The translations under genes and the position numbers were made by a program. Shown here one piece after another: positions 3,610-36,806 of a stretch of DNA of 37,839 nt. The stretch's first letter is position 1; every line of letters begins with the position of its first letter. The notes under the pieces were generated by a model. It saw only the letters and a list, made by a program, of their open reading frames with translations. It was not told where the DNA came from and did not search any database. Source of the DNA: Candidatus Fimimonas merdipullorum (GTDB taxonomy: Bacteria; Bacillota; Clostridia; Christensenellales; CAG-314); contig DVOC01000067.1 of the NCBI GenBank assembly GCA_018713905.1, positions 1 through 37,839 of the forward strand, read 5' to 3'.

Positions 3610-4065
3610 ATGAATCACGAATTGGTTATTTTGAGAGGTTTAGGATATTTCGCTCATGCGGCGAGGCGGTTGCATCGGCAGTGCGTGGCTGCGGCGTTGT
3701 CCAGCGCGCGCGACAGAAGCGGAGCGTACAATCAGACGCTGAAAGTGGCGGAGCTTGCCGTAAAGAGGGACAGCTTTGCCTATTTGCTGGACGTAACAAA
3801 GTGGGCGCTTAAAAATCTGGAAAGAGAAAAGGCAAAATTGCTTGCGGAGGTTTACGTGCGCCGAAAGCCCAAAGGGGAAGTGGCGGCAAGGTACAACGTA
3901 TCCCTGCCTACGCTTTACCGACGTCTGGCGCAGGCGCGCGATAGTTTCAGCAAAAAGTTGCAGGAGGCGGGCTGTACCGAACAGTGGTTCTCCGAAACCT
4001 ACGGCTGTTGTCCCTTCGTGCAAAAGCTTTTGCTGCGGGAAAACGGTTCGCGCATAGAGGAGTAG
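3610..4065 (+). CDS. Small sigma-factor-like/HTH transcription regulator
   Basis: This 151-residue protein begins at an ATG behind an excellent Shine-Dalgarno (AAGGAGGTGACGGA). The middle segment (about residues 55-115) is helical and basic and ends in a helix-turn-helix, 'KGEVAARYNVSLPTLYRRL' at about 91-109, followed by 'AQARDSFSKKLQE'. This is the arrangement of sigma-70 region 4 and of the small ArpU/RinA-type activators that Firmicutes phages use for late genes; that assignment is by pattern only. It is monocistronic, bounded by a hairpin terminator at 4124-4153, and lies 1.3 kb upstream of the virion module in the same orientation, with the divergent SH3-like gene between. A role in switching on that module is a reasonable guess. 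A housekeeping or small-terminase role is not excluded. Confidence 0.75.
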   Translation: MNHELVILRGLGYFAHAARRLHRQCVAAALSSARDRSGAYNQTLKVAELAVKRDSFAYLLDVTKWALKNLEREKAKLLAEVYVRRKPKGEVAARYNVSLPTLYRRLAQARDSFSKKLQEAGCTEQWFSETYGCCPFVQKLLLRENGSRIEE

Positions 4066-4570: not shown

Positions 4571-5281
4571 CTACATATCCTTGTCGTAAGCGTCCTTCTT
4601 TTTGACGTTTCCCGGCAAAAATACCGCAAGGCACACAGCCGCCGCCAGTACGGCAACGAATATTATCAGAAATATCTCCGTTCCGCCCTGTTGCTCGGCA
4701 GGCTGCTGCTCCGACGGCTGTTCCGGCGTTTGCGGCGGGGTGACGACGTCCTGCGGCAACGGCGTGGGGTGAGGACTTATTACGGGCTGCGTGACGGCGT
4801 CCGCCTGCACGTAGCCGAAAGTGCCGCCGAAGTAGACGTAGTACCAAAGCTGTCCGTAGGAGGTAATCTCGCCGTAGTAACTCATGCTTTGGGTGTTGGT
4901 GACGGTCACCAGCGTCTGCGCAGAGGGCAGCGGCGACAGTTTTACGGGAGCGGAGTGCGAATTTACCGTAATTTTGACGGTGGGGTAGTAGGGGGTGACG
5001 GGCGCCAGATCGCAGTCGTCCACTTCGCCTATCCACACATAGCCGGTAATTTGCGGAAAATCCGCCGTATTGGGCATTACGGCAACCTGATACATGCCGT
5101 TCTGTTCGGAAAGCACCTGCAAATAGTAGCTTTTTTCCAGTAGGAAAATCACCTTGGAGCTTTCGCAGGTGGCGTACAGGTTTACTCCCTCCTCCGTCAC
5201 TCTTACCCATTGTCCTTCGGCATTCGCCACGGGCAGGAAAAACGTCAGCAGCAGACAAATCAAAATGCAAACAAATTTCAC
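4571..5281 (-). CDS. Exported SH3-like protein with C-terminal membrane anchor
   Basis: This 236-residue protein is read from GTG at 5281, which gives MKFVC followed by a textbook signal peptide ending at ANA. The SD AAAGAGGTGA lies just upstream, so the GTG 9 bp earlier is less likely. Residues of about 25-80 ('VRVTEEGVNLYATCESS' onward) and 95-160 ('LWYYVYFGGTFGYVQADAV') are two bacterial SH3-like units. A Pro/Gln-rich linker (about 165-195) leads to a single transmembrane helix (about 200-220) and a lysine-rich tail. The order signal, SH3-like, linker, anchor, short tail repeats the plan of the 601-residue protein at 283-2088. The gene is divergent from the terminase gene with 100 bp between starts. 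Binding to cell wall or a surface ligand is inferred from the fold; no enzymatic motif is visible. Confidence 0.85.
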   Translation of the reverse strand: MKFVCILICLLLTFFLPVANAEGQWVRVTEEGVNLYATCESSKVIFLLEKSYYLQVLSEQNGMYQVAVMPNTADFPQITGYVWIGEVDDCDLAPVTPYYPTVKITVNSHSAPVKLSPLPSAQTLVTVTNTQSMSYYGEITSYGQLWYYVYFGGTFGYVQADAVTQPVISPHPTPLPQDVVTPPQTPEQPSEQQPAEQQGGTEIFLIIFVAVLAAAVCLAVFLPGNVKKKDAYDKDM

Positions 5282-5303
5282 GGCAGTCACCTCTTTGCGG
5301 GGA

Positions 5304-5332
5304 ATTATAACTCATTCGCCGTAGCGGATAAA
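5304..5332 (-). promoter_or_regulatory. Promoter of the SH3-like gene in the divergent intergenic region
   Basis: On the minus strand a consensus TATAAT (5309-5304) lies 23 bp upstream of the GTG, with a poor -35 (TTTATC, 17-bp spacing). On the plus strand the same 100-bp spacer holds only a weak candidate (TTATAA, 18 bp, TAAAAT at 5329-5334) for the terminase operon. The virion module may therefore need an activator. Confidence 0.5.
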
Positions 5333-5381
5333 ATCGAAAAAAGCCGACTGCGCACGAGTATTGACTGCCGAGAGGTGTGGT

Positions 5382-6797
5382 ATGAAAAGAGAATTGCAAC
5401 TTTTAAGGCGTATATACGCCGAACAGCAGCGGCGCAAAAACAGTGCGCTGTCGCTGTATAACAAGGAAATAATACACCAAAAGCAGATGGCTTTTCACAG
5501 GTGCACCAAGCGCAACAGGTGGGTGTTCGGCGGCAACCGCAGCGGCAAAACGGAGTGCGGAGCCGTGGAAACGGTGTGGCTGGCAAGAGGTATTCACCCC
5601 TTTCGTCCCAACAGAAAGGAAATAAGCTGTTGGGTAGTGTCCCTCTCGCAGCAGGTGCAGCGAGAGGTGGCGCAGCAGAAGGTGCTTCACTATCTGGACA
5701 AATCGTGGATAGAGGAAATTGCCATGCTGTCCGGCTCCAAGGGTAGTCCTCAATACGGCGTCATAGACTATCTCATCATACGCAACGTGTTCGGCGGCAC
5801 CTCCAAAATAGCCTTCAAAAGCTGCGAGGCGGGCAGGGAAAAATTTCAGGGCGCTTCGCTGGACTTCGTGTGGTTTGACGAAGAGCCGCCGCAGGACGTC
5901 TACGAGGAGTGCCGCATGCGCGTGCTGGACAGGGAAGGGGAAATTTTCGGCACGATGACGCCCCTCAAGGGGCTCACGTGGGTGTACGACGAAATTTACC
6001 TCAACAGCAAAAACAGCAAGGAGGTTTGGTACGAGTTTATGGAGTGGGCGGACAACCCTTTTCTTTCCGCAAGCGAGGTGCAGGCAATGACGGAAACGCT
6101 CTCCGCCGACAGTCTGGAAAGCCGCCGCTACGGCAGATTCCGCTCGGTGGGAGGAATGGTGTACCCCGAATTTGACGAGGTAAACGTCATTCAGCCCTTT
6201 TCCGTCCCGCCCGACTGGCAGGACAAGCTTTCCATCGATCCGGGGCTTAACAACCCCCTCTCCTGCCATTGGTACGCGCGGGACTACGACGGCAACGTGT
6301 ACGTGGTGGCGGAGCACTACGAGGCGCAGCGTGACGTGCAGTATCACGCGCAAAAAATAAAGGAAATAAGCCGCGCCCTGAACTGGCACACCGACGGCAG
6401 AGGCAATTACGAGGCGCTTATGGACAGCGCCGCCAACCAACGCACCCTTTCGGGTACGCGCAGCGTGGCGGAATTGTTTTCCGACAACGGCATAAGCGTG
6501 GATACCCGCGTCAACAAGGACGTGTACACCGGCGTAAACAAGGTAAAAGCGCTGCTTAAATCCGCCTCCGGAAGGCCGCGTCTGTTTGTCTTTGCCAGCT
6601 GCGTCAATATGATACGCGAATTCAAGGGCTACTTCTGGGGCAGCGGCGACAGACCGATAAAAAAAGACGACCACGCCATGGACGAGCTTCGCTACTACGT
6701 GTGTTCCTTGCAGGAGCCGCCCAAAAAGAGGCAGGAAAAAAGCGTGATTTCGCAGGATAAGGAACGGCTGGCAAAGAGACTGAGGCTTGGAGTATAA
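5382..6797 (+). CDS. terL: Phage large terminase subunit (packaging ATPase/nuclease)
   Basis: This 471-residue protein uses the ATG at 5382 behind GAGAGGTGT. The N-terminal ATPase shows Walker A GGNRSGKT (residues 50-57), a Walker B strand ending LDFVWFDEEPP with D166/E167, and a coupling motif GTMTPLKG (189-196). The C-terminal RNase H-like nuclease shows the acid triad: D285 in SIDPG, D347 in ALMDS, and D429/D433 in KKDDHAMDE. All expected catalytic residues are present and the length is normal, so the motor looks functional. TerL pumps DNA into a prohead through the portal and cuts it at the end of packaging. It is the first gene of the virion module. Family identification is firm. Which packaging strategy it uses (headful or site-specific) cannot be read from the sequence. 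Confidence 0.95.
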   Translation: MKRELQLLRRIYAEQQRRKNSALSLYNKEIIHQKQMAFHRCTKRNRWVFGGNRSGKTECGAVETVWLARGIHPFRPNRKEISCWVVSLSQQVQREVAQQKVLHYLDKSWIEEIAMLSGSKGSPQYGVIDYLIIRNVFGGTSKIAFKSCEAGREKFQGASLDFVWFDEEPPQDVYEECRMRVLDREGEIFGTMTPLKGLTWVYDEIYLNSKNSKEVWYEFMEWADNPFLSASEVQAMTETLSADSLESRRYGRFRSVGGMVYPEFDEVNVIQPFSVPPDWQDKLSIDPGLNNPLSCHWYARDYDGNVYVVAEHYEAQRDVQYHAQKIKEISRALNWHTDGRGNYEALMDSAANQRTLSGTRSVAELFSDNGISVDTRVNKDVYTGVNKVKALLKSASGRPRLFVFASCVNMIREFKGYFWGSGDRPIKKDDHAMDELRYYVCSLQEPPKKRQEKSVISQDKERLAKRLRLGV

Positions 6798-6809
6798 GAG
6801 AAGGGAAAG

Positions 6810-6848
6810 TGTCACTAAAAATGGCTACCGTTTTCAAATTTTGTGACA
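6810..6848. promoter_or_regulatory. Inverted repeat between terL and the next gene
   Basis: TGTCACTAAAA (6810-6820) and TTTTGTGACA (6839-6848) form a near-perfect 10-bp inverted repeat with an 18-bp spacer, directly before the SD of the next gene. It could be an operator or an mRNA processing or stabilising structure. No U-run follows, so it is not a normal terminator. Confidence 0.4.
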
Positions 6849-6859
6849 AAAGGAGGTAT

Positions 6860-7192
6860 ATGAAGGATTACAGAGAATTGCTTACGAGGGTGCTGCTCAA
6901 AAAGGCAAAGGGCTACACCTACAAGGAAAAGACGGAGGAATACAACGTCAGCGACGGCGAGGCGGCGCTGGTAAAGCGCAAGATAGCCACCAAACATATG
7001 CACCCCGACGTTGCCGCCGTCAAGGCGCTGTTGCAAATTTCGCAGGACGAAGTTGACGTGTCGCAGATGACGGACGAGCAGCTTCAGGTGGAAAAACTGC
7101 GTCTGTTGGCGCTTATCAACGCCTGCGACAGCGTCGATCAGCCGTCGCAACAGATCACGCCGCAAGGCGAAAGGAGAGATTATGATATTTGA
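6860..7192 (+). CDS. Small packaging-module protein of unknown function
   Basis: This 110-residue protein starts at ATG 6860 behind AAAAGGAGGTAT, a consensus RBS that argues against the longer in-frame start at 6809. The first 55 residues are helical and basic with the pattern 'EKTEEYNVSDGEAALVKRK', followed by 'MHPDVAAVKALLQI' and an acidic helix. I know similar short proteins beside terminase genes in Firmicutes prophages but no assigned function. It may be a small-terminase substitute or packaging accessory. Its stop lies inside the next gene (11-bp overlap), so the two are translationally linked. Confidence 0.75.
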   Translation: MKDYRELLTRVLLKKAKGYTYKEKTEEYNVSDGEAALVKRKIATKHMHPDVAAVKALLQISQDEVDVSQMTDEQLQVEKLRLLALINACDSVDQPSQQITPQGERRDYDI

Positions 7193-7385
7193 AACGCAGC
7201 ATAAAACGGCATGCGACGTAAAGAACTGCCGTAACACGGCGGAGTTTTATCTCCCCGCAAAGACTATTTGCGGCAGGTTCTATATTTGCGGCAGTTGCGC
7301 CCGAAAATTGGCGGAAGAACTTGCTCCGCGGGCGCCCAAAAGTCCCAAAAGCGTGATAAAACGCAAAATGGAGGAGAAGATATGA
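7182..7385 (+). CDS. Zinc-ribbon-like microprotein
   Basis: This 67-residue protein starts at ATG 7182 behind AAAGGAGAGATT and overlaps both neighbours (11 bp with the upstream gene, 4 bp with the portal gene). It has five cysteines, C11, C16, C30, C36 and C39, the last two as CGSC, a plausible single zinc site. The C-terminal third is lysine/arginine-rich ('KSPKSVIKRKMEEK'). The nested overlaps and good RBS make it a real gene. Function is unknown; a DNA- or protein-binding adaptor in packaging is a guess from the zinc-ribbon look and location. Confidence 0.75.
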   Translation: MIFETQHKTACDVKNCRNTAEFYLPAKTICGRFYICGSCARKLAEELAPRAPKSPKSVIKRKMEEKI

Positions 7386-9169
7386 AGCAATTTGCCGAGG
7401 ACGTGGTGGAAAGCGTCCGCGCCGATTTTGCCCAAAGGCAGTTGCAGCGCCGTCCGTATGAATTGACTTGGCAGCTCAACATGAATTTTCTTATGGGCAA
7501 CCAGTATTGTCGGATAACGCCGCGCGGCAGCATAGAACAGGAGGAAAAATTTTATTTCTGGCAGGAAAAGCAGGTGTACAACCACGTTGCTCCCATTGTG
7601 GAAACTCGCCTGTCCCGTCTCAACCACGTGCGTCCCCGCCCCATAGCGCGCCCCTTTTCCAACAGCGACGCCGACGTAAACTCCGCTTTGGTATCCACCA
7701 AAATTCTGGACAGCGCGCGGGAAAAGGTGCATTTAGACGAGCTTATCACCCGCGCCACGCTGTGGAGCGAGGTGTGCGGCACGGCATTTTACAAAATCGC
7801 ATGGGAAGACGACGTGCAGGACGTGGCGTTGAGCGTGTGCTCCCCCTTTGAAATTTACCCCGATTCCAACGTGTCGCAGGGGCTGGAGGAGTGCCGTTCC
7901 CTCATTCACGCCAAGGTGCTGCCGCAAAAGGAAGCGGAAGACAAATGGGGCGTAAAGCTTAAAGGAGAGGAAATAAAGGTCTTTGCCCTGTCCTCTGCAA
8001 CGGGCGTAGGGGGCTTGGGGTACAATTCCGTAGTGCCATCCGTGACGCAGGAAAGCAAAAAGGATCAGGTGCTGGTGCTGGAAAGGTACACCCTGCCCGA
8101 CGCCGACAACCCCAACGGCAGGCTGGAAATAGTGGCGGGGGACGCGCTGCTTTATTGCGGCGAGCTGCCCTATATGCTGGGAGAGGATGGACGGCGGGTG
8201 TTCCCCTTCGTGCGGCAGATATCCGCCGAGCAGGCGGGCTGCTTTTGGGGCGCAAGCGTAGTGGAGCGCGTCATTCCCATTCAGCGCGCCTACAACGCCG
8301 TCAAAAACCGCAAGCACGAGTTTATGAACAGGCTGGCAATGGGGGTGCTGACGGTGGAGGACGGTTCGGTGGATACGGAAAACCTCGAAGAAGAGGGGCT
8401 GTCGCCGGGCAAGATACTGGTGTACCGCCAAGGCTCCGTCAAGCCGCAGCTTATGGACAGCGGCGCCGTGCCCGACGACTTTTCCACCGAGGAAGACAGG
8501 CTGTTGCAGGAGTTCGTCACCGTTTCCGGCGTGTCGGAGTTTGCCCGCAACAGCACAACGCCTACGACTGTCACCAGCGGTCTGGCGTTGCAGCTTATAG
8601 CCGAGCAGGACGATATGCGCCTTGCCGGCTCCATAGACAGCGTCAAGCTGTGCATAAAAAAGATAGCCAAATACGTTTTGCGAATGTACAAACAGTTTGT
8701 GTCGGCAAAAAAGCTTATGCGGTTTGCCGACGGGCAGCACGGCGCGGAGATATTTTATTTCAGCGGCAGCGACATAGGCAGCGACGACGTGGTGTTCGAA
8801 ACGGAAAACGAGTTTACCGAAACTCCCACCACACGCAGAACCATGGTGATGGATCTGCTGCACGCCGGCGTGCTCAACGACAAAAACGGCAAGCTGTCGG
8901 AAAGCGCCAAAGCCAAAATACTCACTCTTATGGGCTTTGGTAACTGGGAAAACGCGCAGGACGTAACGCAGCTGCACATAAAGAGAGCGGCAGCGGAAAA
9001 CGTGGACGTGGACAGCGCGGAAATACTGCCTGTGGACGACCACGCGCTGCACGTGGAGGAGCACACCCGATACGTAATATCGGGGCAGGCGGACGGCGAC
9101 GTGAAGTATCGCGACAAGCTGCTGGAACACATACGCCGTCATCAGGAATATATCAAGGGAGATATTTAA
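7382..9169 (+). CDS. Phage portal protein, P22-like
   Basis: This 595-residue protein starts at ATG 7382 behind GGAGGAGAAGAT. A longer in-frame start at 7268 would lie inside the microprotein gene and has no RBS. The N-terminus 'RRPYELTWQLNMNFLMGNQY', the 'VYNHVAPIVETRLSRL' segment and the later long helix of 'VVERVIPIQRAYNAVKNRK' are typical of the P22 gp1-like portal family. The C-terminal 'VTSGLALQLIAEQDDMRL' region fits the helical crown and stem part. The portal forms the dodecameric DNA gate at one vertex, docks TerL during packaging and holds the tail adaptor afterwards. At 595 residues it is shorter than P22 gp1 (725) but not obviously truncated; reading is uninterrupted. It is followed after 3 bp by the scaffold-like gene. 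Confidence 0.9.
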   Translation: MKQFAEDVVESVRADFAQRQLQRRPYELTWQLNMNFLMGNQYCRITPRGSIEQEEKFYFWQEKQVYNHVAPIVETRLSRLNHVRPRPIARPFSNSDADVNSALVSTKILDSAREKVHLDELITRATLWSEVCGTAFYKIAWEDDVQDVALSVCSPFEIYPDSNVSQGLEECRSLIHAKVLPQKEAEDKWGVKLKGEEIKVFALSSATGVGGLGYNSVVPSVTQESKKDQVLVLERYTLPDADNPNGRLEIVAGDALLYCGELPYMLGEDGRRVFPFVRQISAEQAGCFWGASVVERVIPIQRAYNAVKNRKHEFMNRLAMGVLTVEDGSVDTENLEEEGLSPGKILVYRQGSVKPQLMDSGAVPDDFSTEEDRLLQEFVTVSGVSEFARNSTTPTTVTSGLALQLIAEQDDMRLAGSIDSVKLCIKKIAKYVLRMYKQFVSAKKLMRFADGQHGAEIFYFSGSDIGSDDVVFETENEFTETPTTRRTMVMDLLHAGVLNDKNGKLSESAKAKILTLMGFGNWENAQDVTQLHIKRAAAENVDVDSAEILPVDDHALHVEEHTRYVISGQADGDVKYRDKLLEHIRRHQEYIKGDI

Positions 9170-9172
9170 CAC

Positions 9173-9574
9173 ATGGAATACGGAAAATTTTCCTCTTTGG
9201 AGGAACTGCTGAAAGGGTACGACGAATTGGAAAAAAGTTTTACCAAAAAATGTCAGCAGCTTGCGGAACTCAAAAACAGCATATCGGACGGTACAAACGC
9301 GACGGCGTCACCGTCCGACGCGCGGCAGACAGCGACGGCTGGTGCCGATACAGTCCCACAGGGCGGCGAAGACGCCGTCGCCGCTTCGGACGGCAGTGCG
9401 CGCGCGTCACAGGCTGCTTCGTCTTGCGGGCAACAATGCCAACAGGCACTGCGACAGGACGAAGTCAGACCTCCCTCCGTCATGAACGGCGGGGGAAACG
9501 TGTCCATGGCGATGCCTTCCCGCCCTCGGACACTGAAAGAGGCGTCAGAGATGGCAAAAGAATTTTTCAAATAA
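9173..9574 (+). CDS. Putative capsid scaffolding protein
   Basis: This 133-residue protein lies between portal and coat, the usual place of the scaffold. The N-terminus is a charged helix ('SLEELLKGYDELEKSFTKKC', residues 7-26). The middle (about 40-110) is low-complexity Ala/Ser/Asp/Gln. The C-terminus is a short amphipathic helix ending 'LKEASEMAKEFFK', a helix-linker-helix plan seen in many scaffolds, where the C-terminal helix binds coat protein. It is much shorter than P22 gp8. Assignment rests on position and composition, not on a recognised family. Confidence 0.65.
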   Translation: MEYGKFSSLEELLKGYDELEKSFTKKCQQLAELKNSISDGTNATASPSDARQTATAGADTVPQGGEDAVAASDGSARASQAASSCGQQCQQALRQDEVRPPSVMNGGGNVSMAMPSRPRTLKEASEMAKEFFK

Positions 9575-9584
9575 GGAGAAAACT

Positions 9585-10751
9585 ATGGTAACACTTACCA
9601 GTGCGGAAAACGCACTCAAAACACTGTATCTGGGCGTAGTGGCGGATCAGCTCAACACCAACGTCAACCCGCTGCTTGCCCGAATTGCGCAGACCTCCTC
9701 CGACGTGTGGGGCAAGGAGATACGCAAGCTTGCACCCTTCGGCATAAACGGCGGCATAGGCGCGGGCACCGAGGACGGCGAACTGCCGGGCGCGGCGTCC
9801 AATAACTATGCGCAGTTCGTGCTTACCCTCAAAAACCTTTACGGCACGATAGAAATTTCCGACAAGGCGATACGCGCCAGCCAGAACAGCGCGGGAGCGT
9901 TCGTCAACCTGCTGGAAGCGGAAATGGAGGGGCTTATCAAGGCGTCCCGCTTCAACTTCGGCAGAATGCTGTTCGGCGACGGCAGCGGCGTAATTGCCAA
10001 AGCCGCTTCGCAGGCGGGCAACGTCATCACGGTGGATTCCGTCAAAAACGTCATAGAGGGCATGGTGGTGGACGTCGTTTCGGCAACCTCCCAAAGCGTT
10101 ACCGTGTCCGCCCGCCGCATAACGGACGTGGACAGAAGCGCCAAAACCGTCACGCTGTCCGGCGCGTCCATAGCCGCTTCTACCGTGGCGGAGGGGGACT
10201 ATCTTACCGTGCAGGGCAGCTACGGCAACGAGCTTACGGGACTGGGAGCCATTTTCGGTTCTTCGGAAAAGCTGTACGGGCTTACCCGCACCGCCAACAA
10301 GTGGCTGGCTCCCTACAAGGCGACGGCTTCCGCCATTACCGACGTGGTGATACAAAAGGCGATAGACACGCTGGACGAAGTGGCAGGCTCCGCCGCCGAC
10401 TTCATAGTGTGCTCCGCAGGAGTAAAGCGCGCCTATCAGGAATACCTTGTTACCAACCGCAGCAACGTCGACGTGATGAACCTGCAAGGGGGCTACAAAG
10501 CCATTTCCTACAACGGCATACCCATCGTGTCGGACAGATTTGCGCCGGACGGAACTATGTACATACTCAACACCTCCGACTTCCATCTTCATCAGCTGTG
10601 CGACTGGCGCTGGCTGGAAGGGGACGACGGCAGAGTGATAAAGCAGGTCGCCAACAAGCCGGTGTACACCGCAACGCTGGTGAAATACGCCGATATGATT
10701 TGCGACAGACCTATCGGTCAGGCAATGATAAGCGGCATAACGGAAAAATAA
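9585..10751 (+). CDS. Phage major capsid (coat) protein, HK97-fold type
   Basis: This 388-residue protein has a strong RBS (AAGGAGAAAACT). The N-terminal part holds a spine-like helical region and 'YGTIEISDKAIRASQ', the kind of segment seen in coat proteins of the HK97-fold superfamily. An inserted beta-rich region (about 140-215, 'VITVDSVKNVIEGMVVDVVS') resembles insertion domains of such coats. The C-terminal half has 'AADFIVCSAGVKRAYQEYL' and 'KAISYNGIPIVSDRFAPDG', the typical A-domain/P-loop turn of phage coats ('G.PIV.D...P.G..Y.L'). It would assemble as hexamers and pentamers around the scaffold. Reading is uninterrupted and length normal. The fold is inferred from pattern and gene order. 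Confidence 0.9.
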   Translation: MVTLTSAENALKTLYLGVVADQLNTNVNPLLARIAQTSSDVWGKEIRKLAPFGINGGIGAGTEDGELPGAASNNYAQFVLTLKNLYGTIEISDKAIRASQNSAGAFVNLLEAEMEGLIKASRFNFGRMLFGDGSGVIAKAASQAGNVITVDSVKNVIEGMVVDVVSATSQSVTVSARRITDVDRSAKTVTLSGASIAASTVAEGDYLTVQGSYGNELTGLGAIFGSSEKLYGLTRTANKWLAPYKATASAITDVVIQKAIDTLDEVAGSAADFIVCSAGVKRAYQEYLVTNRSNVDVMNLQGGYKAISYNGIPIVSDRFAPDGTMYILNTSDFHLHQLCDWRWLEGDDGRVIKQVANKPVYTATLVKYADMICDRPIGQAMISGITEK

Positions 10752-10758
10752 CTTTTTT

Positions 10759-10790
10759 GCGCAGGGGGAGATTTTCTCCCCCGTTTGCGC
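10759..10790 (+). promoter_or_regulatory. Strong hairpin between the coat gene and the next gene
   Basis: An 8-bp perfect GC-rich stem (GGGGGAGA with TCTCCCCC, 3-nt loop) is extended outward by GCGCA with TGCGC across a GTT bulge. It sits 8 bp past the coat stop and directly against the SD (GGAGG, 10791) of the next gene. There is no U-run after it, so it is better seen as an mRNA 3'-protecting or processing hairpin that may uncouple coat expression from the downstream genes. Confidence 0.55.
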
Positions 10791-10799
10791 GGAGGAAAA

Positions 10800-11033
10800 A
10801 TGTGCCTGATAAGAATAACGGAGGACGTATTCGACGTCTGCGACAGACTTAAAAGCGTTGACGAAAGGTACAAGCTGTTCTACAACGCAAAAAAGCGCCG
10901 CTACGAGGTGTACACGGAAGATAAATTGGCTTTCGTCGTGCCCTTCGACAGCTTGGACGCGCGGACGGTGGAATACGCAAGAATGACGCGGGTGGAACGC
11001 GCGGCGGAAATTTTCCGCGAAACGGAGTGGTAA
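10800..11033 (+). CDS. Small conserved-looking virion-module protein
   Basis: This 77-residue protein starts at ATG 10800 with GGAGG 5 bp upstream. The pattern is 'DRLKSVDERYKLFYNAKKRRYEVY' followed by a beta strand and 'PFDSLDARTVEYARMTRVERA'. I know look-alikes in Firmicutes prophage head modules but no assigned function. There is no export signal or membrane segment. It lies between coat and adaptor genes, so a head-completion or decoration role is possible but unproven. Confidence 0.75.
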   Translation: MCLIRITEDVFDVCDRLKSVDERYKLFYNAKKRRYEVYTEDKLAFVVPFDSLDARTVEYARMTRVERAAEIFRETEW

Positions 11034-11085
11034 CGCCGTAACGGCAAAAGGATTTTCACCGTGCGCTTTGCCGCAAAGGAGAAGT

Positions 11086-11631
11086 ATGAAAATTTATGAA
11101 ATTTTAAGCTTGTGCAACGATATGGCAAAACTGGGATTGCCTGCGGAGTATTTTACGGCAAACAATCAAAGCGCGCTTGCCGACGAAAGGATAAGAGCGA
11201 TGCTCACCTGCTGCGCAACCGTTTCGGAGGAGCTGTACTGCGACTACGCCGCCGCCGTCAAAAAATGCAGGGTGCGGGCGGAAAACGGTTTTATAGACTG
11301 CTCGAAGCTGCGCCTTTGCAGGGTGATAAGCCTTACCGACAGCATGGGAAACGCCGCCAAGTACCGTTACACCGAGGGCGGGCTGATAACGGACGAGGGG
11401 GAGTACACCGTGGTTTATGCAGCGCTGCCCCCAAAGACGGAGTGGGATGGCGAGATAAAGCTTACTCCCCGCATAACTCCCCGCATTTTCGCCTACGGCA
11501 TAATTGCCGAATACTGCTTTATTTCGGGGGACGTAGTGGCGCAGAAGTCGTGGGCGCAGCGTTACTATGACGCTCTGCGCCTTGCCGAGATAAAAACCTC
11601 GTTGCAGACGATGCCCGCGGGGAGGTGGTAA
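11086..11631 (+). CDS. Head-tail adaptor-like protein (podovirus connector)
   Basis: This 181-residue protein starts at ATG 11086 behind AAAGGAGAAGT; the upstream gap 11034-11085 carries GTGCGCTTTGCCGCA, part of the window's recurring intergenic motif. N-terminal helices lead to a beta-rich core ('EGEYTVVYAALPP'). A C-terminal helical hairpin contains 'RIFAYGIIAEYCFISGDVVA' and 'AQRYYDALRLAEI'. That end pattern (helix, small residues, GD, helix, Y..AL..A) is what podovirus adaptors such as T7 gp11-like and P22 gp4-like proteins show; they bind under the portal after packaging. Assignment is by pattern plus position. Confidence 0.7.
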   Translation: MKIYEILSLCNDMAKLGLPAEYFTANNQSALADERIRAMLTCCATVSEELYCDYAAAVKKCRVRAENGFIDCSKLRLCRVISLTDSMGNAAKYRYTEGGLITDEGEYTVVYAALPPKTEWDGEIKLTPRITPRIFAYGIIAEYCFISGDVVAQKSWAQRYYDALRLAEIKTSLQTMPAGRW

Positions 11632-11632
11632 A

Positions 11633-12784
11633 ATGTTTATACCCAAAACGCCCTTTTTTCCTGCAATGAAAAAGACCGTTTTCACTTTGGACGTAGCGGA
11701 AGCGGCGGCGGAGTTTTGCAATATGCGTCCCGCCGAGGGACGTTCGGCAGAGGACTTTGTAGGCGTTGCGGACGCGGCTCCGGCATACGGCGCTTACGAA
11801 ACGGATAACTACGCCCTGATTTGCACGGACAGCGGAATTTACGTCAGGCGGGACGGGGAGGAAAAGATAGAAAGCGACGAGCTGAAAAACCCCTGCTTTT
11901 GCTACTGTAAAAATCAAAACGCGCTGGTGGTGTCGGACGAGCAAGGCATTTTCCTTTACGACGGCGGCTGGAACAGGGTAAGCGAGTACGGCGCGACAAG
12001 CCTCGTGTTTTTCAAGGAAAGGGTGTTCGGCGTCTACGGCGACGGGCTTTACTATTCGGCGCGCGACGACGCTTCCCTTTGGGAGGGAAAAATCAGCCTG
12101 CCGCAAAACGTCACCTGCCTTGCTGCGGGAGAAAAGCTGTACGCTGCGGGCAGCGAGCTGTACGAGATAGACTTTGACGACAACGAGGAAAAGACGCAGA
12201 TAAAGTACGTGCGGGGAGCGTTGCCCACGCCCTATGCCATGGCAATTTGCGGCAAAAAGCTGTTTTTCGTCGCAGGCGAAGGGCTGTATATGCTTTCCGG
12301 CAAAGAGCTGCGGCTTGTTTACCGGCAGGACACTTCCTCTGCGGAGATATGCTTTGTCAATAACCGCTGCTACGCCCGAATGGGGGATAAAATCGTCGAG
12401 GCTGACTGCGACGGCAGGGTGACCTGCCTTTGGCAGGGGGATTTTCGTTGCCTGCAAGGGGGCAAAAGAGTGATTTTCGTCCACGAAAACACCGTCAAGA
12501 CCTTTGGCTCGGGACGGGCGGACGGCTGGTGGAAAAGCCGCGAAATAAATCTCGGCACGCCGCAGTACAAGCTGCTCAAAAACCTGCGCATAGAGGCGAA
12601 GGGCAAAATAGACGTACACCTCGTCACCGACGGCGACAGGCGCATTTTTCACTTTAACGGCGGCGGCAAGGCTGCGGTGGGGGCGAAATTTCGCAGCCTT
12701 TCGGTGGAAATTTTCTTAGGCGACGGCTTAGTGGGCAGCGTCACGCTGGAAGCCGCCCTGCCCAAGGAGGTGTGGTATGGCTGA
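11633..12784 (+). CDS. Beta-propeller tail hub-like protein
   Basis: This 383-residue protein starts 1 bp after the previous stop with the RBS GGGGAGGTGGTAAA. Most of it (about residues 60-330) is short four-strand-like repeats: 'NALVVSDEQGIFLYDGG', 'RVFGVYGDGLYYSA', 'KLYAAGSELYEID', 'KLFFVAGEGLYMLSG', 'NRCYARMGDKIVEAD'. The last 60 residues are a separate beta domain. In P22-like phages the gene after the adaptor (gp10) encodes a beta-propeller tail hub, so both fold and place agree. It has no signal peptide, unlike the propeller-like protein at 283-2088. Fold is inferred from repeat spacing. Confidence 0.7.
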   Translation: MFIPKTPFFPAMKKTVFTLDVAEAAAEFCNMRPAEGRSAEDFVGVADAAPAYGAYETDNYALICTDSGIYVRRDGEEKIESDELKNPCFCYCKNQNALVVSDEQGIFLYDGGWNRVSEYGATSLVFFKERVFGVYGDGLYYSARDDASLWEGKISLPQNVTCLAAGEKLYAAGSELYEIDFDDNEEKTQIKYVRGALPTPYAMAICGKKLFFVAGEGLYMLSGKELRLVYRQDTSSAEICFVNNRCYARMGDKIVEADCDGRVTCLWQGDFRCLQGGKRVIFVHENTVKTFGSGRADGWWKSREINLGTPQYKLLKNLRIEAKGKIDVHLVTDGDRRIFHFNGGGKAAVGAKFRSLSVEIFLGDGLVGSVTLEAALPKEVWYG

Positions 12785-13709
12785 GATAACTCCCGAAAGA
12801 CAGCAGCAGCTGATAGAGGAATACGCTCAACTTAAAGAAAAGATATTGGACGTAGACCACAAATACAGCCTGTCCTACTACGAGCCGGAATTGGAATTCG
12901 AGCCGTCGCTGGGGCTGGAAAAGCTTACCTTCACCCCGCTGACGGAAACGGAGCTGCAACAGCTGGCGCAGCAGGAGGTAAATCCCCGTTATCTGGAAAA
13001 ACAGCGTTCGCTGGACAAAAGCTACGCTACCGCCAAAGCCAACGTGTTGCTTTCCGTGGACAGACAGGCGGAAAAGCACCGCAAAAACCTTGTGAAGCTT
13101 GCCGATCAATATGCGGAAGATTACAAAAAGCGACAGCACGCTCTGGCAAACGGCGGAATGTGGCACTCCTCCGCCGCGGAAAAAGCCTTGAAAAGCATTG
13201 ACGACGCCTACGACGGCGACGTAGAGGAGGAAAACAAACGCTACACCGCCGAATACGAGGCGCTTTACGACAAGCTGGACGCTCTGGAAGACAGCTACGA
13301 GCAGGGCACCGCCTCCATTGCACAGCAGAAACAGCTGGCGATAGCGGCGGAAGTGGCGGCGTTGGAGGAAAAACAGGAGAAAAACCGTATCAGCATAGAA
13401 AAGTACAACAATACGGTGGACGAAAAGGAAATAAAATATCAGGCAAGCTGCCGAAGATACCTTCAATACGCCATTCAGGCGGAATACGAAAGGGCGTTGG
13501 AGGCGGCGAAGCTGCATGCCGAGCTGGGCGAAAGCGGCGTAAAACAGCAGATGCTTTCGGAAAAGCTCAATTGCTGCAAGGCGCATTTCACCGGTTACAG
13601 GCAGTACGAAGCGCAGTTCGTGTTGCAGATAGACACTTTTTTGCAGGCTAATCTGGAAGACTACTACACGGCGCTTACCGATTGGGTAACGCAGATACTT
13701 ATTCCCTAA
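12777..13709 (+). CDS. Coiled-coil protein ending the virion module (needle/plug candidate)
   Basis: This 310-residue protein overlaps the propeller gene by 8 bp and has the RBS AAGGAGGTGTGGT. Residues of about 5-25 and 60-275 are highly charged, Glu/Lys/Gln/Ala-rich helix, strongly coiled-coil-like, e.g. 'QLAIAAEVAALEEKQEKNR'. The last 50 residues ('YEAQFVLQIDTFLQANLEDY' onward) are less charged and may form a small tip or foot. In P22 order the gene after the hub encodes the trimeric coiled-coil needle gp26 that plugs the tail. This protein takes that place, but I see no sequence signature of gp26. It could also be an internal or ejection-type protein. Confidence 0.7.
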   Translation: MAEITPERQQQLIEEYAQLKEKILDVDHKYSLSYYEPELEFEPSLGLEKLTFTPLTETELQQLAQQEVNPRYLEKQRSLDKSYATAKANVLLSVDRQAEKHRKNLVKLADQYAEDYKKRQHALANGGMWHSSAAEKALKSIDDAYDGDVEEENKRYTAEYEALYDKLDALEDSYEQGTASIAQQKQLAIAAEVAALEEKQEKNRISIEKYNNTVDEKEIKYQASCRRYLQYAIQAEYERALEAAKLHAELGESGVKQQMLSEKLNCCKAHFTGYRQYEAQFVLQIDTFLQANLEDYYTALTDWVTQILIP

Positions 13710-13774
13710 TACACTAAAACAAAAGCAACTTCCTCAGCACAAGGGGAAAAGCACCGTTGCCCGCTTTATGCGCC

Positions 13775-13807
13775 CAACGCCTCCGCATTTTTTGCGGGGG
13801 CGTTTTT
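13775..13807 (+). terminator. Terminator closing the virion module
   Basis: A 12-bp stem, AACGCCTCCGCA with TGCGGGGGCGTT (one T-G pair), has a 5-nt T loop and is followed by a U-run. It sits 66 bp after the last virion gene and marks a clean operon end. Confidence 0.9.
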
Positions 13808-14048
13808 TGTACGTAAAAAATACATACGTATGCGATTTTTCGTGACATCTGCGCTCGGATTTACTTCCTCTTTTCGTAAACGCGCCGACGTTTTTTTTCG
13901 ATTTTACGTTGCAGCGGGAAAGCGCACAAATGCCCTTTTGTCGGAAGAAGACGGGCGAACCCGTCCTTGTCGGGCGGAGATACGTCGGCTGATTTTTGCG
14001 GCTTAAAGCTCTCTTTCGGGGGCGCCGCGGCTTATCGCCGCCAAAGGC
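13808..14048. other. Non-coding spacer after the virion module
   Basis: I see no gene here. A perfect palindrome CATACGTATG lies at 13823-13832, close to the terminator. There is no integrase or obvious att-like duplication of a sequence upstream of terL. Confidence 0.4.
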
Positions 14049-14077
14049 TTGCGCAAATGACGTATTTGCTGTATAAT
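14049..14077 (+). promoter_or_regulatory. Promoter for the membrane-protein pair
   Basis: TTGCGC (14049-14054) and TATAAT (14072-14077) are 17 bp apart, about 65 bp upstream of the GTG start at 14142. Confidence 0.75.
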
Positions 14078-14141
14078 ATATAAGCAAAAATATTGCCGCA
14101 CGCGAAACGTTTCGGCGGGAGGCAAAATACGGAGAATAATC

Positions 14142-14969
14142 GTGAGAGATCAAAGCAAATCTGCCGTCGCGTATATTTTCAGAAACTTTCTGCACCTTGC
14201 TCCTTGGGCGCTGGTAAGTGCGGCGCTTATGGGAATGTTCTTTAACGGGAGCAACTACGTTTCGCTGTTTTCGCACTTGCAGGCGGACAACGTAAACGAC
14301 TACAATGCGGCGGGCACGGTGCTGCATTATTTCAGTGTGCTGCGCTTCAGGGACTTCGACTCCTACTGGTGGGGCGCGATAGTCGCCATAGTGGTGCTTG
14401 CCTTTACGCAAAGTCTGCTTATGGTAAAGGTGGAAAGGCACATGCAGATAGGGGAAATGAAAGTGCTTCCGCTGCGCCGCACAATGGCGGTGTTTCCCGC
14501 AATGCTGCTGTTCGTGGTGTGTGTCGCCCTCTTTGTGGAGGGGTGCAACCTTGTGACGGCGGGCATTGCCTATCTGCTGCGCTCTCTGGGAGCGACCGTG
14601 GTGGTGTCGGTAAGCTTTGCGCTGGCGTTTCTGTTCAGAATGCTGTTCATGCTGGTGCTGGGCACGCTTATGGTGGCGTTCCCCATAATGTTCGTGGAGC
14701 ACTACGCGCTTAATCAGGCGTTGTCCTACTCGGTGCGGCTGATGAGCGAAAAGCGCAGGTTTTTGTGGACGATAGCCACCGTGTATCCTCTTTGCGAGGC
14801 GGCGCTTACGGCAATATGCGGCTTCATAGGCGTGCAGGCGGTGACCATCACGCTGTTTTCGGTGATGTACCTGTTCTGCATGCTGCTTATCCCCGCAGTC
14901 ACCTTCCGCATCTACTTTGAATGCGTCGGCGGCGAGCGGCGGGATATCGGGCGCAAAATTTTCGGCTGA
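14142..14969 (+). CDS. Polytopic membrane protein of unknown function
   Basis: This 275-residue protein starts at GTG 14142 behind CGGAGAATAATC. About six hydrophobic segments are visible, near residues 18-35, 78-95, 116-135, 155-185, 205-230 and 237-255. A cytoplasmic-looking stretch contains 'EHYALNQALSYSVRLMSEKR'. No transport or enzyme motif is recognised. The next gene is 13 bp downstream and encodes another membrane protein with a similar 'QSL..G....PKRFW' segment, and the protein at 24249-25466 has a comparable one. These may be distant paralogues acting in envelope homeostasis; that is inference. Confidence 0.8.
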   Translation: MRDQSKSAVAYIFRNFLHLAPWALVSAALMGMFFNGSNYVSLFSHLQADNVNDYNAAGTVLHYFSVLRFRDFDSYWWGAIVAIVVLAFTQSLLMVKVERHMQIGEMKVLPLRRTMAVFPAMLLFVVCVALFVEGCNLVTAGIAYLLRSLGATVVVSVSFALAFLFRMLFMLVLGTLMVAFPIMFVEHYALNQALSYSVRLMSEKRRFLWTIATVYPLCEAALTAICGFIGVQAVTITLFSVMYLFCMLLIPAVTFRIYFECVGGERRDIGRKIFG

Positions 14970-14982
14970 GGGAGGCGCAAAA

Positions 14983-15969
14983 ATGATTTTCAACAAAATT
15001 TTGTCCCTGTCGGCACACAACTGGAAGGTAATGCTGAAAGCGCTGTTCTGTCAGGTGGTGATACTTGCCCTTATACTTGCGCTGGGCTTTTTGGTGTTCG
15101 GCGGCGTGCTGGACGAATTGGTAAAGGTGGTTCAGGCAGGCGGCTGGGGAGATTTTATCTCCGAAACGGTGATAAGCATAAGCGACGGCACCTTTTCCGG
15201 CACGGCTTTTTCCGGCAGTCTTGCCTACTGCATAGAGCAGACGCGCGCGGCAATAGAGTCTATCCCCAACATGTGGGACAGGATAGAGTGGTCGTATATC
15301 TCGGTGATAGTGCTGTTTTTGGTGTACCGCATGCTGGTGTCCTTCTCCGATGTGCCGGTAAGCTTTCAGCTGTACGAATACATGACTTCCAACACGGCGC
15401 GTCCCTTCACGTGGTATTTCGTCAAAAAATTCGGTGAAAGCTGCCGCTTCGTGCTGCTGCAAACGGTAATAAGCGTGCTGCTGGATCTGCTCATCGTGAC
15501 GGGCGGCGTCACCATCTGTCTTGTTTTCGTCACCATGCTCAAATGGTGGACGATAATCCCCGGCATACTGATAACGGTGTTTTTGTACTCTATGCGTCAG
15601 GCGTACTGCGCCTTCTGGCTGCCCTCGATAGCGACGGAAAACATGGGCATACGCCAATCGCTGATAAACGGACTTACCGTCATTCCCAAGCGCTTCTGGC
15701 GCGTATTTTGGAAAACCTTTCTGATAATCGTGGTAATGGCGGCAATTACGGTGGTATCCGTTGTTTTCTTGGACGACTATGTGGCAAAACTTATACTGGC
15801 AACCGTGCCCAATCTGTGTCTGTTTTTCCTGCTGAAATGCGTCAACATGGCGGAATATTTCGAGGCTACGGAGCGCCCCTACTTTTTCAAGACGGTGTAC
15901 GTCGAGGGCACCGACCGCTACAACAGACGCAAGCAGCGTCTGGAACGTAAAAACAGGGGCAAAAACTGA
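14983..15969 (+). CDS. Polytopic membrane protein of unknown function
   Basis: This 328-residue protein starts at ATG 14983 behind GAGGGAGGCGCAAAA. Hydrophobic segments lie near residues 18-42, 105-125, 163-190, 195-215, 245-265 and 270-285. Between them is 'RQSLINGLTVIPKRFWRVFW', a basic-aromatic segment like those in the two other membrane proteins of this window. The C-terminus is a basic tail rich in Arg and Lys ('NRRKQRLERKNRGKN'). No family is recognised. It is co-transcribed with the preceding gene. No strong terminator follows; a 6-bp hairpin lies near 16013-16029. Confidence 0.8.
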   Translation: MIFNKILSLSAHNWKVMLKALFCQVVILALILALGFLVFGGVLDELVKVVQAGGWGDFISETVISISDGTFSGTAFSGSLAYCIEQTRAAIESIPNMWDRIEWSYISVIVLFLVYRMLVSFSDVPVSFQLYEYMTSNTARPFTWYFVKKFGESCRFVLLQTVISVLLDLLIVTGGVTICLVFVTMLKWWTIIPGILITVFLYSMRQAYCAFWLPSIATENMGIRQSLINGLTVIPKRFWRVFWKTFLIIVVMAAITVVSVVFLDDYVAKLILATVPNLCLFFLLKCVNMAEYFEATERPYFFKTVYVEGTDRYNRRKQRLERKNRGKN

Positions 15970-16164
15970 CTTGCGCGTCTTTTTTGTATTGTGCGTGACA
16001 AGATAAGCAACTTAAAAGGCGAAAAGCCTTTGGCTCTGCGGAGCAAATAAATCGCAAATGCGGCAGAAAGCGTGGCGCAAATGCGGCAAAAAATAATATT
16101 GTAGACGCAAAACCAACTTGCGGCGACGCCGTCAGGTTGACTTTTGCGCTGTAAAGAGGTGTAA

Positions 16165-18081
16165 ATGAAAAATAAAAACGTAAAGGGCGCGGGCGGCGCA
16201 AAACAGCGCAAGCAGGCGCAGAGCCGCGCTCCCCAAAAGGCAAAAAAAGGCGGGGCAAATCCGCAGCAATACGCTCAGGCTAAAAAAGCCGCCCGCCGAC
16301 AAAACGTCGGTCAGGGCAAAAACAATGCCGCCGCGCCGTTGCAGGCGCAAAACGTGCAGGCTACGCAGCGCGCCCGCAGTCAGCGGCGCACCGTGCTGGG
16401 CTACGGCGGTCCCAAGGGCAATCTGAAAGTCATTTTCCTTGGCGGCGTAGGGGAAATAGGCAAGAACATGACGGTGTTCGAATACGGCGACAGCATGGTG
16501 ATAGTGGACGTCGGGATGTCCTTCCCCGGCAGCGATATGCCCGGCGTGGACGTCGTCATTCCGGATTTTTCCTACGTGGTGCAAAACAGAAAGAAGCTGA
16601 AAGCCATTTTGCTTACCCACGGACACGAAGACCACATCGGGGCAATTGCATATCTGGTGAAGGCTCTCGGCGGCAAGGTGGACGTGTACGGTTCCAAGCT
16701 GACGCTGGCATTGGTGGAAAACAAGCTTGCCGAGCATAGCGTAATAGACAAGGTTAACCTTGTGGCTGTGGCGGACAAAAGCGTCGTCATGCTGGACGAC
16801 TTCACGGCGGAATTTATACACGTATCTCACTCGGTGGCGGGCAGCCTTGCAATATGCTTGCGCACTCCCGTGGGCGTGGTGCTGCACACCGGCGACTTCA
16901 AAATAGACTACACGCCGTTGGGCAACGAAATAATGAACCTCAACCGCATTGCGGAGGTGGGCAAGCAGGGCGTACTGCTGCTGATGAGCGAATCCACCAA
17001 CGTGGAAAAAACCGGCTACACCATGAGCGAGTCGGTGGTGGAAGACACCATGAACAAGGTGTTCCAAGACGCCAAAGGGCGCAGGATAATTGTAGCCACC
17101 TTTGCCTCCAACGTGGACAGGATAGGCATGGTGATAGACCTTGCGCGGCGGTACAAGCGCAAAATAGCCCTTTCGGGCAGAAGCATGCTCAAATACGTGG
17201 AAACCGCCTGCCGCGTGGGGCAGATGTCTGTGGATCACGATATGTTCGTGGACGTGGATAGGGTAAACAGCATAGAAGACGGCAGACTTGTCATACTGTC
17301 TACCGGCAGTCAGGGCGAGCCGATGTCGGCGCTGACGCGCATGGCAAGCGGCGAATTTAACAAGGTGCACATAGGAAGCAACGACACCATAGTCATTTCC
17401 GCATCTCCCATCCCCGGCAACGAAAAGGACGTATACAACGTTATAAACAAGCTGTACAGGCTGGGCGCCATGGTGGTGTATTCGGCGCTGTCGGCGGTGC
17501 ACGTTTCGGGGCACGCCTGCCAAGAGGAACTCAAGCTTATCTACACCTTGGTAAAGCCCCGCTACTTCATTCCCATTCACGGCGAATATCGTCACTTAAA
17601 ACAGCACGCAATGCTGGTGGAAAAGCTGGGGCACAGCCGCGGCAACGTCATCATTCCGGAAATAGGCGACTGCGTAGAGGTCTCCCAAACCACCTTCAAG
17701 GTGGCGGGTAGCGTGCAAAGCGGCAACGTGATGGTGGACGGTCTGGGCGTGGGCGACGTGGGCAACGTCGTCATAAAGGACAGGCTTTCTCTGGCGGAAG
17801 AGGGTATTCTGGTGTGCAGCGTGGCGCTGGACAAGCGCAAGCAGCAACTGGCTTCGGCGGTGGAAATTGCAAGCAGGGGCTGCTTCTTTGCCGGCGACGG
17901 CAACGCCGACCACCTTGTGGACGAACTGAAAAAGGCAATAACGGGCGAGCTGCTGGACACTCTGCGCCATGCTACGTCCGTTGCGGCGATAAAATCTGCC
18001 GTGCAGCATGCGGCTAAAAGGTATTTCCGCACCAAATACAAGCGCAACCCCGTAGTGCTTACGATAGTGCTGGAAGTATGA
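16165..18081 (+). CDS. rnj: Ribonuclease J with a basic N-terminal extension
   Basis: RNase J is a metallo-beta-lactamase/beta-CASP nuclease with 5'-3' exonuclease and endonuclease activity in mRNA turnover and rRNA maturation. This 638-residue protein shows the metal motif THGHEDHIG (H152, H154, D156, H157), the second metal region 'FIHVSHSVAGSLAI', the 'HTGDFKID' motif, the beta-CASP 'STGSQGEPMSALTRMASGEF' block and 'IPIHGEYRHL' near the C-terminal region. The catalytic set is complete. The first 75 residues are a low-complexity Lys/Arg/Gln/Ala extension, which accounts for its excess over the usual 550-560 residues; such tails can bind RNA. The RBS is AAAGAGGTGTAA. Its stop overlaps the ATG of trmR (ATGA), so the two are coupled. 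Confidence 0.95.
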   Translation: MKNKNVKGAGGAKQRKQAQSRAPQKAKKGGANPQQYAQAKKAARRQNVGQGKNNAAAPLQAQNVQATQRARSQRRTVLGYGGPKGNLKVIFLGGVGEIGKNMTVFEYGDSMVIVDVGMSFPGSDMPGVDVVIPDFSYVVQNRKKLKAILLTHGHEDHIGAIAYLVKALGGKVDVYGSKLTLALVENKLAEHSVIDKVNLVAVADKSVVMLDDFTAEFIHVSHSVAGSLAICLRTPVGVVLHTGDFKIDYTPLGNEIMNLNRIAEVGKQGVLLLMSESTNVEKTGYTMSESVVEDTMNKVFQDAKGRRIIVATFASNVDRIGMVIDLARRYKRKIALSGRSMLKYVETACRVGQMSVDHDMFVDVDRVNSIEDGRLVILSTGSQGEPMSALTRMASGEFNKVHIGSNDTIVISASPIPGNEKDVYNVINKLYRLGAMVVYSALSAVHVSGHACQEELKLIYTLVKPRYFIPIHGEYRHLKQHAMLVEKLGHSRGNVIIPEIGDCVEVSQTTFKVAGSVQSGNVMVDGLGVGDVGNVVIKDRLSLAEEGILVCSVALDKRKQQLASAVEIASRGCFFAGDGNADHLVDELKKAITGELLDTLRHATSVAAIKSAVQHAAKRYFRTKYKRNPVVLTIVLEV

Positions 18082-18662
18082 CGGCAAAGCTGCAGGAAAT
18101 ACTGCGCTTTGCCCGCAGCAGACATATTCCCGTCATGCCGGACGACACAAAGGAGCTGCTGTACAAATTGGCAAAGCAGCACCGTCCCAAGCGCATTCTG
18201 GAAATTGGCACAGCCATAGGTTACAGCGGCATAGTGCTGCTTACCGCCAGTCCGCACGCCACGTTGAACACCATCGAGTTTGACGAGGAACGCGCGGAAA
18301 TGGCGCGCAGAAACTTTGCCGACGCGGGGGTGTACGACAGGGTAAACCTGTTTGTAGGGGACGCCAAGGAGATAGTTCCGCAACTTACGGGACAGTACGA
18401 CTTTATATTTATGGACGGCCCCAAGGGACAGTACGAGGTGTTTTTGCCCTATTTAGAGGAAGTGCTGCAAAGGGGTGGCATATTGGTTTGCGACAACGTG
18501 TTGTACAAAGGATTGGTGGAGCATATCCCCGACAAACGGCACAAGCACATAACCGTTGCCCGCAACCTCAACTCCTTTCTGCACCGAATAACCGCCGACG
18601 ACAGTCTGGAAACGACTGTCTACCGCATTGGCGACGGCGTAAGCGTAACGCGCAAGAAGTGA
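18078..18662 (+). CDS. trmR: TrmR-like tRNA 5-hydroxyuridine O-methyltransferase
   Basis: This 194-residue protein is a class I SAM-dependent O-methyltransferase. The SAM motif 'LEIGTAIGYSG' is at 41-51, an acidic motif 'NTIEFDEERAEMAR' follows, and the metal/substrate loop 'DFIFMDGPKGQYEVFLP' is typical of the caffeoyl-CoA/YrrM group. In Bacillus subtilis YrrM (TrmR) methylates 5-hydroxyuridine at wobble position 34 to 5-methoxyuridine, and its gene sits next to the U32 proteins TrhP1/TrhP2 that help make ho5U. Here a TrhP-like gene follows about 800 bp downstream on the same strand, which supports TrmR over another O-methyltransferase. The start ATG overlaps the rnj stop. Confidence 0.8.
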   Translation: MTAKLQEILRFARSRHIPVMPDDTKELLYKLAKQHRPKRILEIGTAIGYSGIVLLTASPHATLNTIEFDEERAEMARRNFADAGVYDRVNLFVGDAKEIVPQLTGQYDFIFMDGPKGQYEVFLPYLEEVLQRGGILVCDNVLYKGLVEHIPDKRHKHITVARNLNSFLHRITADDSLETTVYRIGDGVSVTRKK

Positions 18663-36464: not shown

Positions 36465-36806
36465 TCAGAAGCCGAGGCTCAACAGCAGCGCGTCCTCTAT
36501 CTTGCGCATTACGTCGGCGGGCAGTTCTCCTATTTTCTCCTTTATGCGGCTTTTGTCTATGGTGCGTATCTGCTCCAAAAGCACTACGGAATTTTTGGGC
36601 AGCGGAGAATTTTCCTTGGCAATTTCTATGTGTGTGGGCAGCTTTGCCTTGTACAGTCGCGAAGTGGTGGCGGCGGCAATGACGGTGGGGCTGTATTTGT
36701 TGCCCACGTCGTTTTGCAGCACTACGACGGGGCGCACTCCGCCCTGTTCGCTGCCCACAACGGGATTGAGATCGGCATAATAGACCTCGCCTCTTTTTAT
36801 TGTCAT
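36465..36806 (-). CDS. mazF: MazF/EndoA-type mRNA interferase
   Basis: This 113-residue protein is a PemK/MazF-fold endoribonuclease that cleaves mRNA at specific short sites. The pattern '[20 protein letters not shown]', R25 in '[12 protein letters not shown]' and T48 in 'AAATTSR' match the catalytic residues R25 and T48 known for Bacillus subtilis EndoA. It is full length. The usual antitoxin gene (ndoAI-like, ribbon-helix-helix) is not seen immediately upstream. Instead a short open frame ends in an ATGA overlap with the mazF start. The RBS is GGGGGTGAAAAC. Confidence 0.9.

Follow-up and report, generated by a model that had tools for sequence, protein, structure and literature searches.

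Gene content of the cluster

In the 37,839-nt contig DVOC01000067.1 of Candidatus Fimimonas merdipullorum (referred to here, at its full length, as the window), positions 5382–13709 of the forward strand are occupied by ten intact, co-directional open reading frames (ORFs), which are separated by gaps or overlaps of no more than about 50 nt and are followed by a good intrinsic terminator (13776–13804, forward strand) that closes the cluster. This is the packed ten-gene module with its terminator that an earlier reading of the bare sequence (hereafter, the original prediction) had described and had proposed to be a gene-transfer agent (GTA) or another domesticated particle. The first gene encodes the large terminase, TerL (5382–6797; Terminase_6N, 3e-12; Terminase_6C, 3e-8; phrog_2, 1e-30), and is followed by ORF2, a possible small terminase that is conserved in position and weakly TerS-like (6827–7192; phrog_309, 1e-3), by the 67-aa ORF3, conserved in the family (7182–7385), and by the portal (7382–9169; P22_portal, 6e-17; phrog_156, 7e-30). 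A scaffold-like protein (9173–9574), named for its position between portal and coat and lacking a useful sequence match, precedes the major coat protein (9585–10751; phrog_14242, major head protein, 3e-72) and the small ORF7 (10803–11033), whose position is conserved in relatives. The tail part consists of a podophage-type head-to-tail adaptor (11083–11631) and a beta-propeller hub or nozzle (11633–12784), both assigned from predicted structures with no useful sequence match, and of a coiled-coil DUF7934 protein, the last gene of the cluster (12777–13709; DUF7934 profile, 8e-15). The GC content of the cluster equals that of its flanks. As had been claimed, no gene is interrupted; the hub is whole, although with 383 aa it is shorter than the hubs of congeners (about 415 aa). 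The original prediction had noted Walker A, Walker B and a nuclease acid triad in the window's TerL; across 63 relatives, both Walker motifs and the nuclease residues D286, D348, D430 and D434 vary little or not at all.

The models of the adaptor and the hub, built from alignments of relatives (pLDDT 92 and 80, respectively), resemble podophage gp4- and gp10-type proteins, as expected from the original prediction. The adaptor model matches the adaptors of the short-tailed phages KHP30, Pa223, SU10, N4 and T7 (gp11), and the hub model matches podophage hubs and nozzles of VP1, Pam1, P22 (gp10, among the first ranks), GP4 and T7. The coat protein showed no match among PDB sequences and falls outside the named P22 coat families; its match to SU10_MCP is weak, and the closest GenBank phage coats, from Arthrobacter, Microbacterium and Cellulosimicrobium phages, are only 24–31% identical. 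Hence, the description of the module as P22-like holds for gene order and tail design but not for the coat.

Neither the ORF list nor the profile and family scans revealed an integrase, replication, repressor, lysis or tailspike gene in the window, and we found no tRNA and no attachment repeats there. The gene set and attachment sites expected of a temperate prophage are therefore missing from the window, and genes for integration, replication or lysogeny are not conserved in the flanks of relatives either, as is characteristic of GTAs. Contractile-tail genes of the PBSX type are likewise absent, the podophage-type adaptor and hub being the only tail design present. The claim that no other phage genes lie nearby was thus right for these functions, but it overlooked a putative phage-type activator upstream of the cluster (described below).

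Distribution, descent and selection

The coat gene occurs in exactly one stop-free copy in all 24 same-genus genomes searched, and it is present in 13 of 16 genomes of the family, where two of the three absences coincide with contig breaks (G036 and G028), and in half of those of the order (55/110), across many sampled families. Its identity declines with kinship, from 65–84% within the genus to mostly 45–67% in other families. Named relatives are Clostridia metagenome-assembled genomes, including Borkfalkia and Christensenella, which makes Christensenellales the probable order. In a wider draw of 391 genomes of the class, half of the coat matches fell within the order, and several of those outside it resemble real prophages.

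Within the family, the locus has a common gene order (activator, SH3 gene, cluster, two membrane proteins, RNase J, O-methyltransferase, U32 peptidase), and RNase J adjoins the cluster in other families as well. The cluster is single-copy in nearly all carriers, even where the neighbouring genes have changed. A tree of TerL, portal and coat from 27 genomes shared 13 of 24 splits with the rpoB tree, as compared with a mean of 0.3 and a maximum of 3 in 1000 label shuffles, and the corresponding distances were correlated with a Mantel r of 0.81 (within the family, 0.93 when G032 is left out). Synteny and tree congruence in related Clostridia, both anticipated by the original prediction, show that the cluster has been inherited vertically since before the family radiated; this inheritance probably extends to before the radiation of several families of the order.

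Genes were full-length at every family locus spanning the cluster, except at contig edges and for small ORFs below detection, and no frameshifts were seen there. The dN/dS ratios of TerL, portal and coat are low (about 0.02–0.15), in line with the original prediction and similar to those of RNase J, their absolute values being soft because dS is near saturation in most pairs; among the head genes, the scaffold-like gene has the fastest dN/dS. The cluster has thus descended vertically in the host lineage and under purifying selection; the frameshifts, truncations and relaxed selection of a decaying remnant are not seen, decay being confined to a single genome (G054). The hub is the fastest-diverging gene, with a median identity within the genus of 28% vs. 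76% for TerL, 73% for portal and 82% for coat. Judged by this divergence, it would suit a part of the particle that meets recipients or competitors.

Several loci depart from the single-cluster arrangement. One single-contig genome, G072, carries two different copies of the cluster (L195, L196), and G128 (L205, 8035–10367) has two tandem, diverged coats, 46% and 50% identical to that of the window; RNase J lies a short way downstream. The coat also occurs outside the order, in each of the five genomes sampled from genus g142, family f76 (G209, G260, G305, G345 and G365). The locus of G260 comprises scaffold, coat, ORF7 and hub without terminase and portal, which may represent a split version.

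Neighbouring genes and candidate regulation

Upstream of the cluster, a conserved gene (3610–4065, forward strand) encodes a 151-aa putative phage-type late transcriptional activator of the ArpU/RinA kind. The window's copy, a divergent member of its family, shows weak helix-turn-helix and sigma matches, and a relative from another family (L085, 3792–4355) matches the late-activator profiles phrog_248 (7e-11) and phrog_36 (1e-9). Divergent from TerL lies a gene for a surface protein composed of a signal peptide, an SH3 domain, a proline-rich part and a transmembrane segment (4571–5290, reverse strand). Outside the window's family, this SH3 family is present in 48 of 55 coat-positive vs. 6 of 55 coat-negative genomes, related genomes not being independent. 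Together with the activator, this co-occurrence of the secreted SH3 protein with the coat speaks against the word self-contained, used in the original prediction, in its strict sense.

In most congeners, the intergenic region between the SH3 gene and TerL (5291–5381 in the window) contains the motif TTTGCCGAGTTRTG, of which the window has no exact copy. The motif was matched in 18 of 25 genomes (22 matches in total; a reversed control pattern matched twice) and is otherwise nearly absent from congener genomes. We consider TTTGCCGAGTTRTG a candidate operator. Its use as a pointer to a second regulated locus was rejected, as the extra matches examined lie inside ordinary coding genes.

A further secreted SH3 protein of 601 aa, with a C-terminal membrane anchor, is encoded farther upstream (283–2088, reverse strand) and precedes the cluster in nearly all family loci; its counterparts in other families measure about 820–1090 aa, and one of them has an NHL repeat. 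It is a candidate surface partner of the particle. On the other side, two membrane-protein genes (14142–15969, forward strand) are the usual neighbours between the cluster and RNase J, which does not imply that they belong to the cluster, and RNase J itself (16165–18081, forward strand) is an ordinary gene that anchors the conserved location.

In families f3, f6, f8 and f19, holins of the BhlA type and the Phage_holin_1 type directly follow the DUF7934 gene, and these are the sole members of both holin families above the cut-off in the genomes scanned. In another lineage, long-tail and fibre genes have been added to the cluster.

Discussion

We herein describe a gene cluster with complete terminase, portal, coat, adaptor and hub genes, of which those for the head are under purifying selection. 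We regard it, with high confidence, as a particle cluster that has been domesticated and is maintained. Moreover, it is likely to act as a GTA, in the form of a domesticated operon for a podovirus-type head and short tail. The stricter statement, that the cluster packages host DNA and transfers it, is probable to a similar or slightly lesser degree, because we infer packaging and delivery from the conserved terminase residues, from selection and from published packaging in the same group. Of the two labels offered by the original prediction, that of a domesticated, vertically kept cluster stands, and that of a strict GTA is probable and gains from the published packaging data (PMC12946183).

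The strongest competing explanation is that capsid and stubby tail serve some other purpose, for instance killing relatives in the manner of PBSX, or storing or exporting something else, DNA packaging being incidental or lost. All the evidence for vertical inheritance is equally compatible with such a particle, the very fast evolution of the hub is what would be expected of a weapon or a target-recognition protein, and PBSX itself packages host DNA without injecting it (PMC12946183). However, the cluster has no contractile tail, and the retention of the TerL ATPase and nuclease residues in 63 sequences, together with strong selection on the portal, indicates that DNA packaging itself is maintained. 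We regard a domesticated particle that is not a GTA as a credible but unlikely explanation.

A recently acquired, decaying or cryptic prophage would account for the phage origin of all cluster genes, and true phages and prophages with related coats do exist, as does a decayed example of the cluster (G054). Nevertheless, essentially every congener has the cluster at one locus with congruent trees, and its genes are under purifying selection and free of frameshifts across genomes that differ at up to a third of rpoB positions. Nor did any related locus in the order place the module within a full-length prophage, as this explanation would predict: the one complete prophage encountered, in G528, is a separate element inserted into the coat gene. 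The cluster is not a recently reduced prophage, and we give this explanation hardly any weight. Equally improbable is a phage satellite or a prophage lineage that repeatedly reinvades a hot spot around RNase J, which could explain the two copies in G072 and the discordant copy in G032 but not the lack of an integrase and attachment repeats in the window, a tree congruence far above chance or the nearly constant single copy even beside changed neighbours.

Several observations weigh against the proposal of an inherited, DNA-transferring operon. In the window's family, no member of either holin family (PF04531, PF10960) passed the cut-off, and neither a lysis gene nor a receptor-binding one was found, so that a second locus, as in Faecalibacterium, has to be assumed. 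The place of the G032 copy off its genome's position in the tree and the two copies in G072 indicate some horizontal movement, deep nodes between families are poorly resolved, and the softness of the absolute dN/dS values noted above applies here too. Finally, the particle, its packaged DNA and their transfer are deduced from a cluster that is known here through its genes.

If the cluster works as a GTA, the following course may be envisaged. The adjacent phage-type activator would turn on the operon at the divergent SH3/TerL promoter, and the coat would assemble on the scaffold into a small capsid, which TerL, acting with little or no sequence preference, would fill with pieces of the host chromosome. 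The adaptor, the beta-propeller hub and the coiled-coil protein would then seal the portal and together make up the stubby tail. A subset of cells would lyse, presumably with the aid of holins in the several families that encode them just behind the cluster and by some other route in the window's family, and the released particles would bring DNA to relatives, with the fast-changing hub possibly setting specificity.

To our knowledge, few GTAs are known outside the Alphaproteobacteria, and podovirus-type GTAs are represented by a single other example, published in 2026. RcGTA and the other alphaproteobacterial GTAs are inherited vertically under purifying selection, lack replication and integration genes and are under cellular regulation; they have siphovirus-like tails, and their coat, adaptor and tail sets are unrelated to those of the present cluster, which differs from them in its podophage adaptor and hub folds. 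With podophages of the P22 type (as well as SU10, KHP30, Pam1 and GP4), the cluster shares the order terminase, portal, scaffold, coat, adaptor, hub and the folds of the latter two; unlike them, it descends vertically, has a coat outside the P22 family and is without replication, lysogeny, ejection and tailspike genes. PBSX of Bacillus subtilis, whose tail is contractile, kills without injection. The present cluster has none of its contractile-tail genes, and resembles PBSX in being a particle that a Gram-positive host has domesticated and passes on vertically (PMC12946183).

The closest parallel, compared here by description only, is FpGTA I of Faecalibacterium, a podovirus-type GTA operon of ten ORFs and about 10 kb reported in 2026, the particles of which measure about 40 nm and contain 8.4–8.9 kb of host DNA (PMC12946183). 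Both systems comprise ten ORFs, among them genes for terminase, portal, scaffold, coat and a short tail, but lack replication genes, are nearly ubiquitous in their genus and belong to Gram-positive Clostridia of the gut. They differ in gene order, as the present cluster has TerL first and the possible small terminase after it, and in the adjacent activator and SH3 surface gene of the present cluster; moreover, FpGTA I relies on a separate lysis and fibre operon, whereas several families carrying the present cluster have holins within it. For Christensenellaceae, the same study observed packaging of the GTA kind (3 of 25 events), in which virus-like particles contained short, random pieces of chromosomal DNA, and named no operon (PMC12946183); our search of the literature available to us returned no other paper pairing GTAs with Christensenella or Christensenellales. 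Given this, the present cluster is the natural and the best candidate for the packaging system in Christensenellaceae, the published packaging not being linked to the cluster itself.

Among the 391 class genomes, a 16S probe for Faecalibacterium found no genome of that genus. Genus g103 (family f48) was considered as Faecalibacterium, having a P22_portal locus in 6/6 genomes, and was rejected, since its 16S V4 region is 82–83% identical to a Faecalibacterium V4 sequence. All six (L268–L273) have a similar arrangement, in which the gene for a P22-type portal of 564 aa lies with TerL and an activator-like gene, and no coat is recognisable nearby; possibly, this is another domesticated particle with scattered genes.

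If the proposal is correct, gut Clostridia that are abundant and for the most part uncultured would, across a whole order, possess an inherited DNA-export system far older than any one genus. The named genes (terL, coat and activator) make the GTA-like packaging of Christensenellaceae testable, and they provide sequence handles for such systems in metagenomes, where fragments of the cluster are now filed as viruses.

The cluster is also a site of phage and defence-gene insertion, seen as one complete prophage and as related disruptions at two to three other loci. In G528 (IMG/VR, 67,686 bp; L165/L290–L292), the insertion at coat codon 379 is a complete prophage that measures at least about 50 kb. 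It brings a TerL, a portal, a tape measure, an Mtd-type tail protein and two large serine recombinases of its own, and beyond it the cluster resumes directly with ORF7, adaptor, hub and DUF7934. In three further records, for which the evidence consists of left junctions only, the coat is broken at nearly the same left junction and continues into a type I restriction system (G526/L128 and G529/L159, the latter also with two serine recombinases) or into a C5-methylase and McrBC (G527/L151). In the decayed cluster of G054 (L285, about 8607–18584), TerL is shortened to 323 aa, a methylase, two proteins of no known function and Thoeris ThsA replace the region from portal to coat, and a coat remnant of 41–43 aa stands ahead of the adaptor and hub. 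The use or disruption of the cluster by phages and defence genes helps to explain why its pieces are filed as viral. Judging from the G528 insertion, the 3′ end of the coat gene may serve as a phage attachment site and hence as a switch for particle production. We tentatively speculate that the order might share a podovirus-type GTA older than many of the family splits in the Clostridia, with its own activator and a one-copy-per-genome operator, which temperate phages would disable or control by integrating at the coat 3′ end; we would not, however, favour this wider picture over its alternatives.

Elsewhere in the window, we noted a gene for a PemK/MazF-type toxin (36465–36806, reverse strand; PF02452, 2e-36) and a 54-nt tandem duplication (25310–25417) within the 3′ part of a membrane-protein gene.

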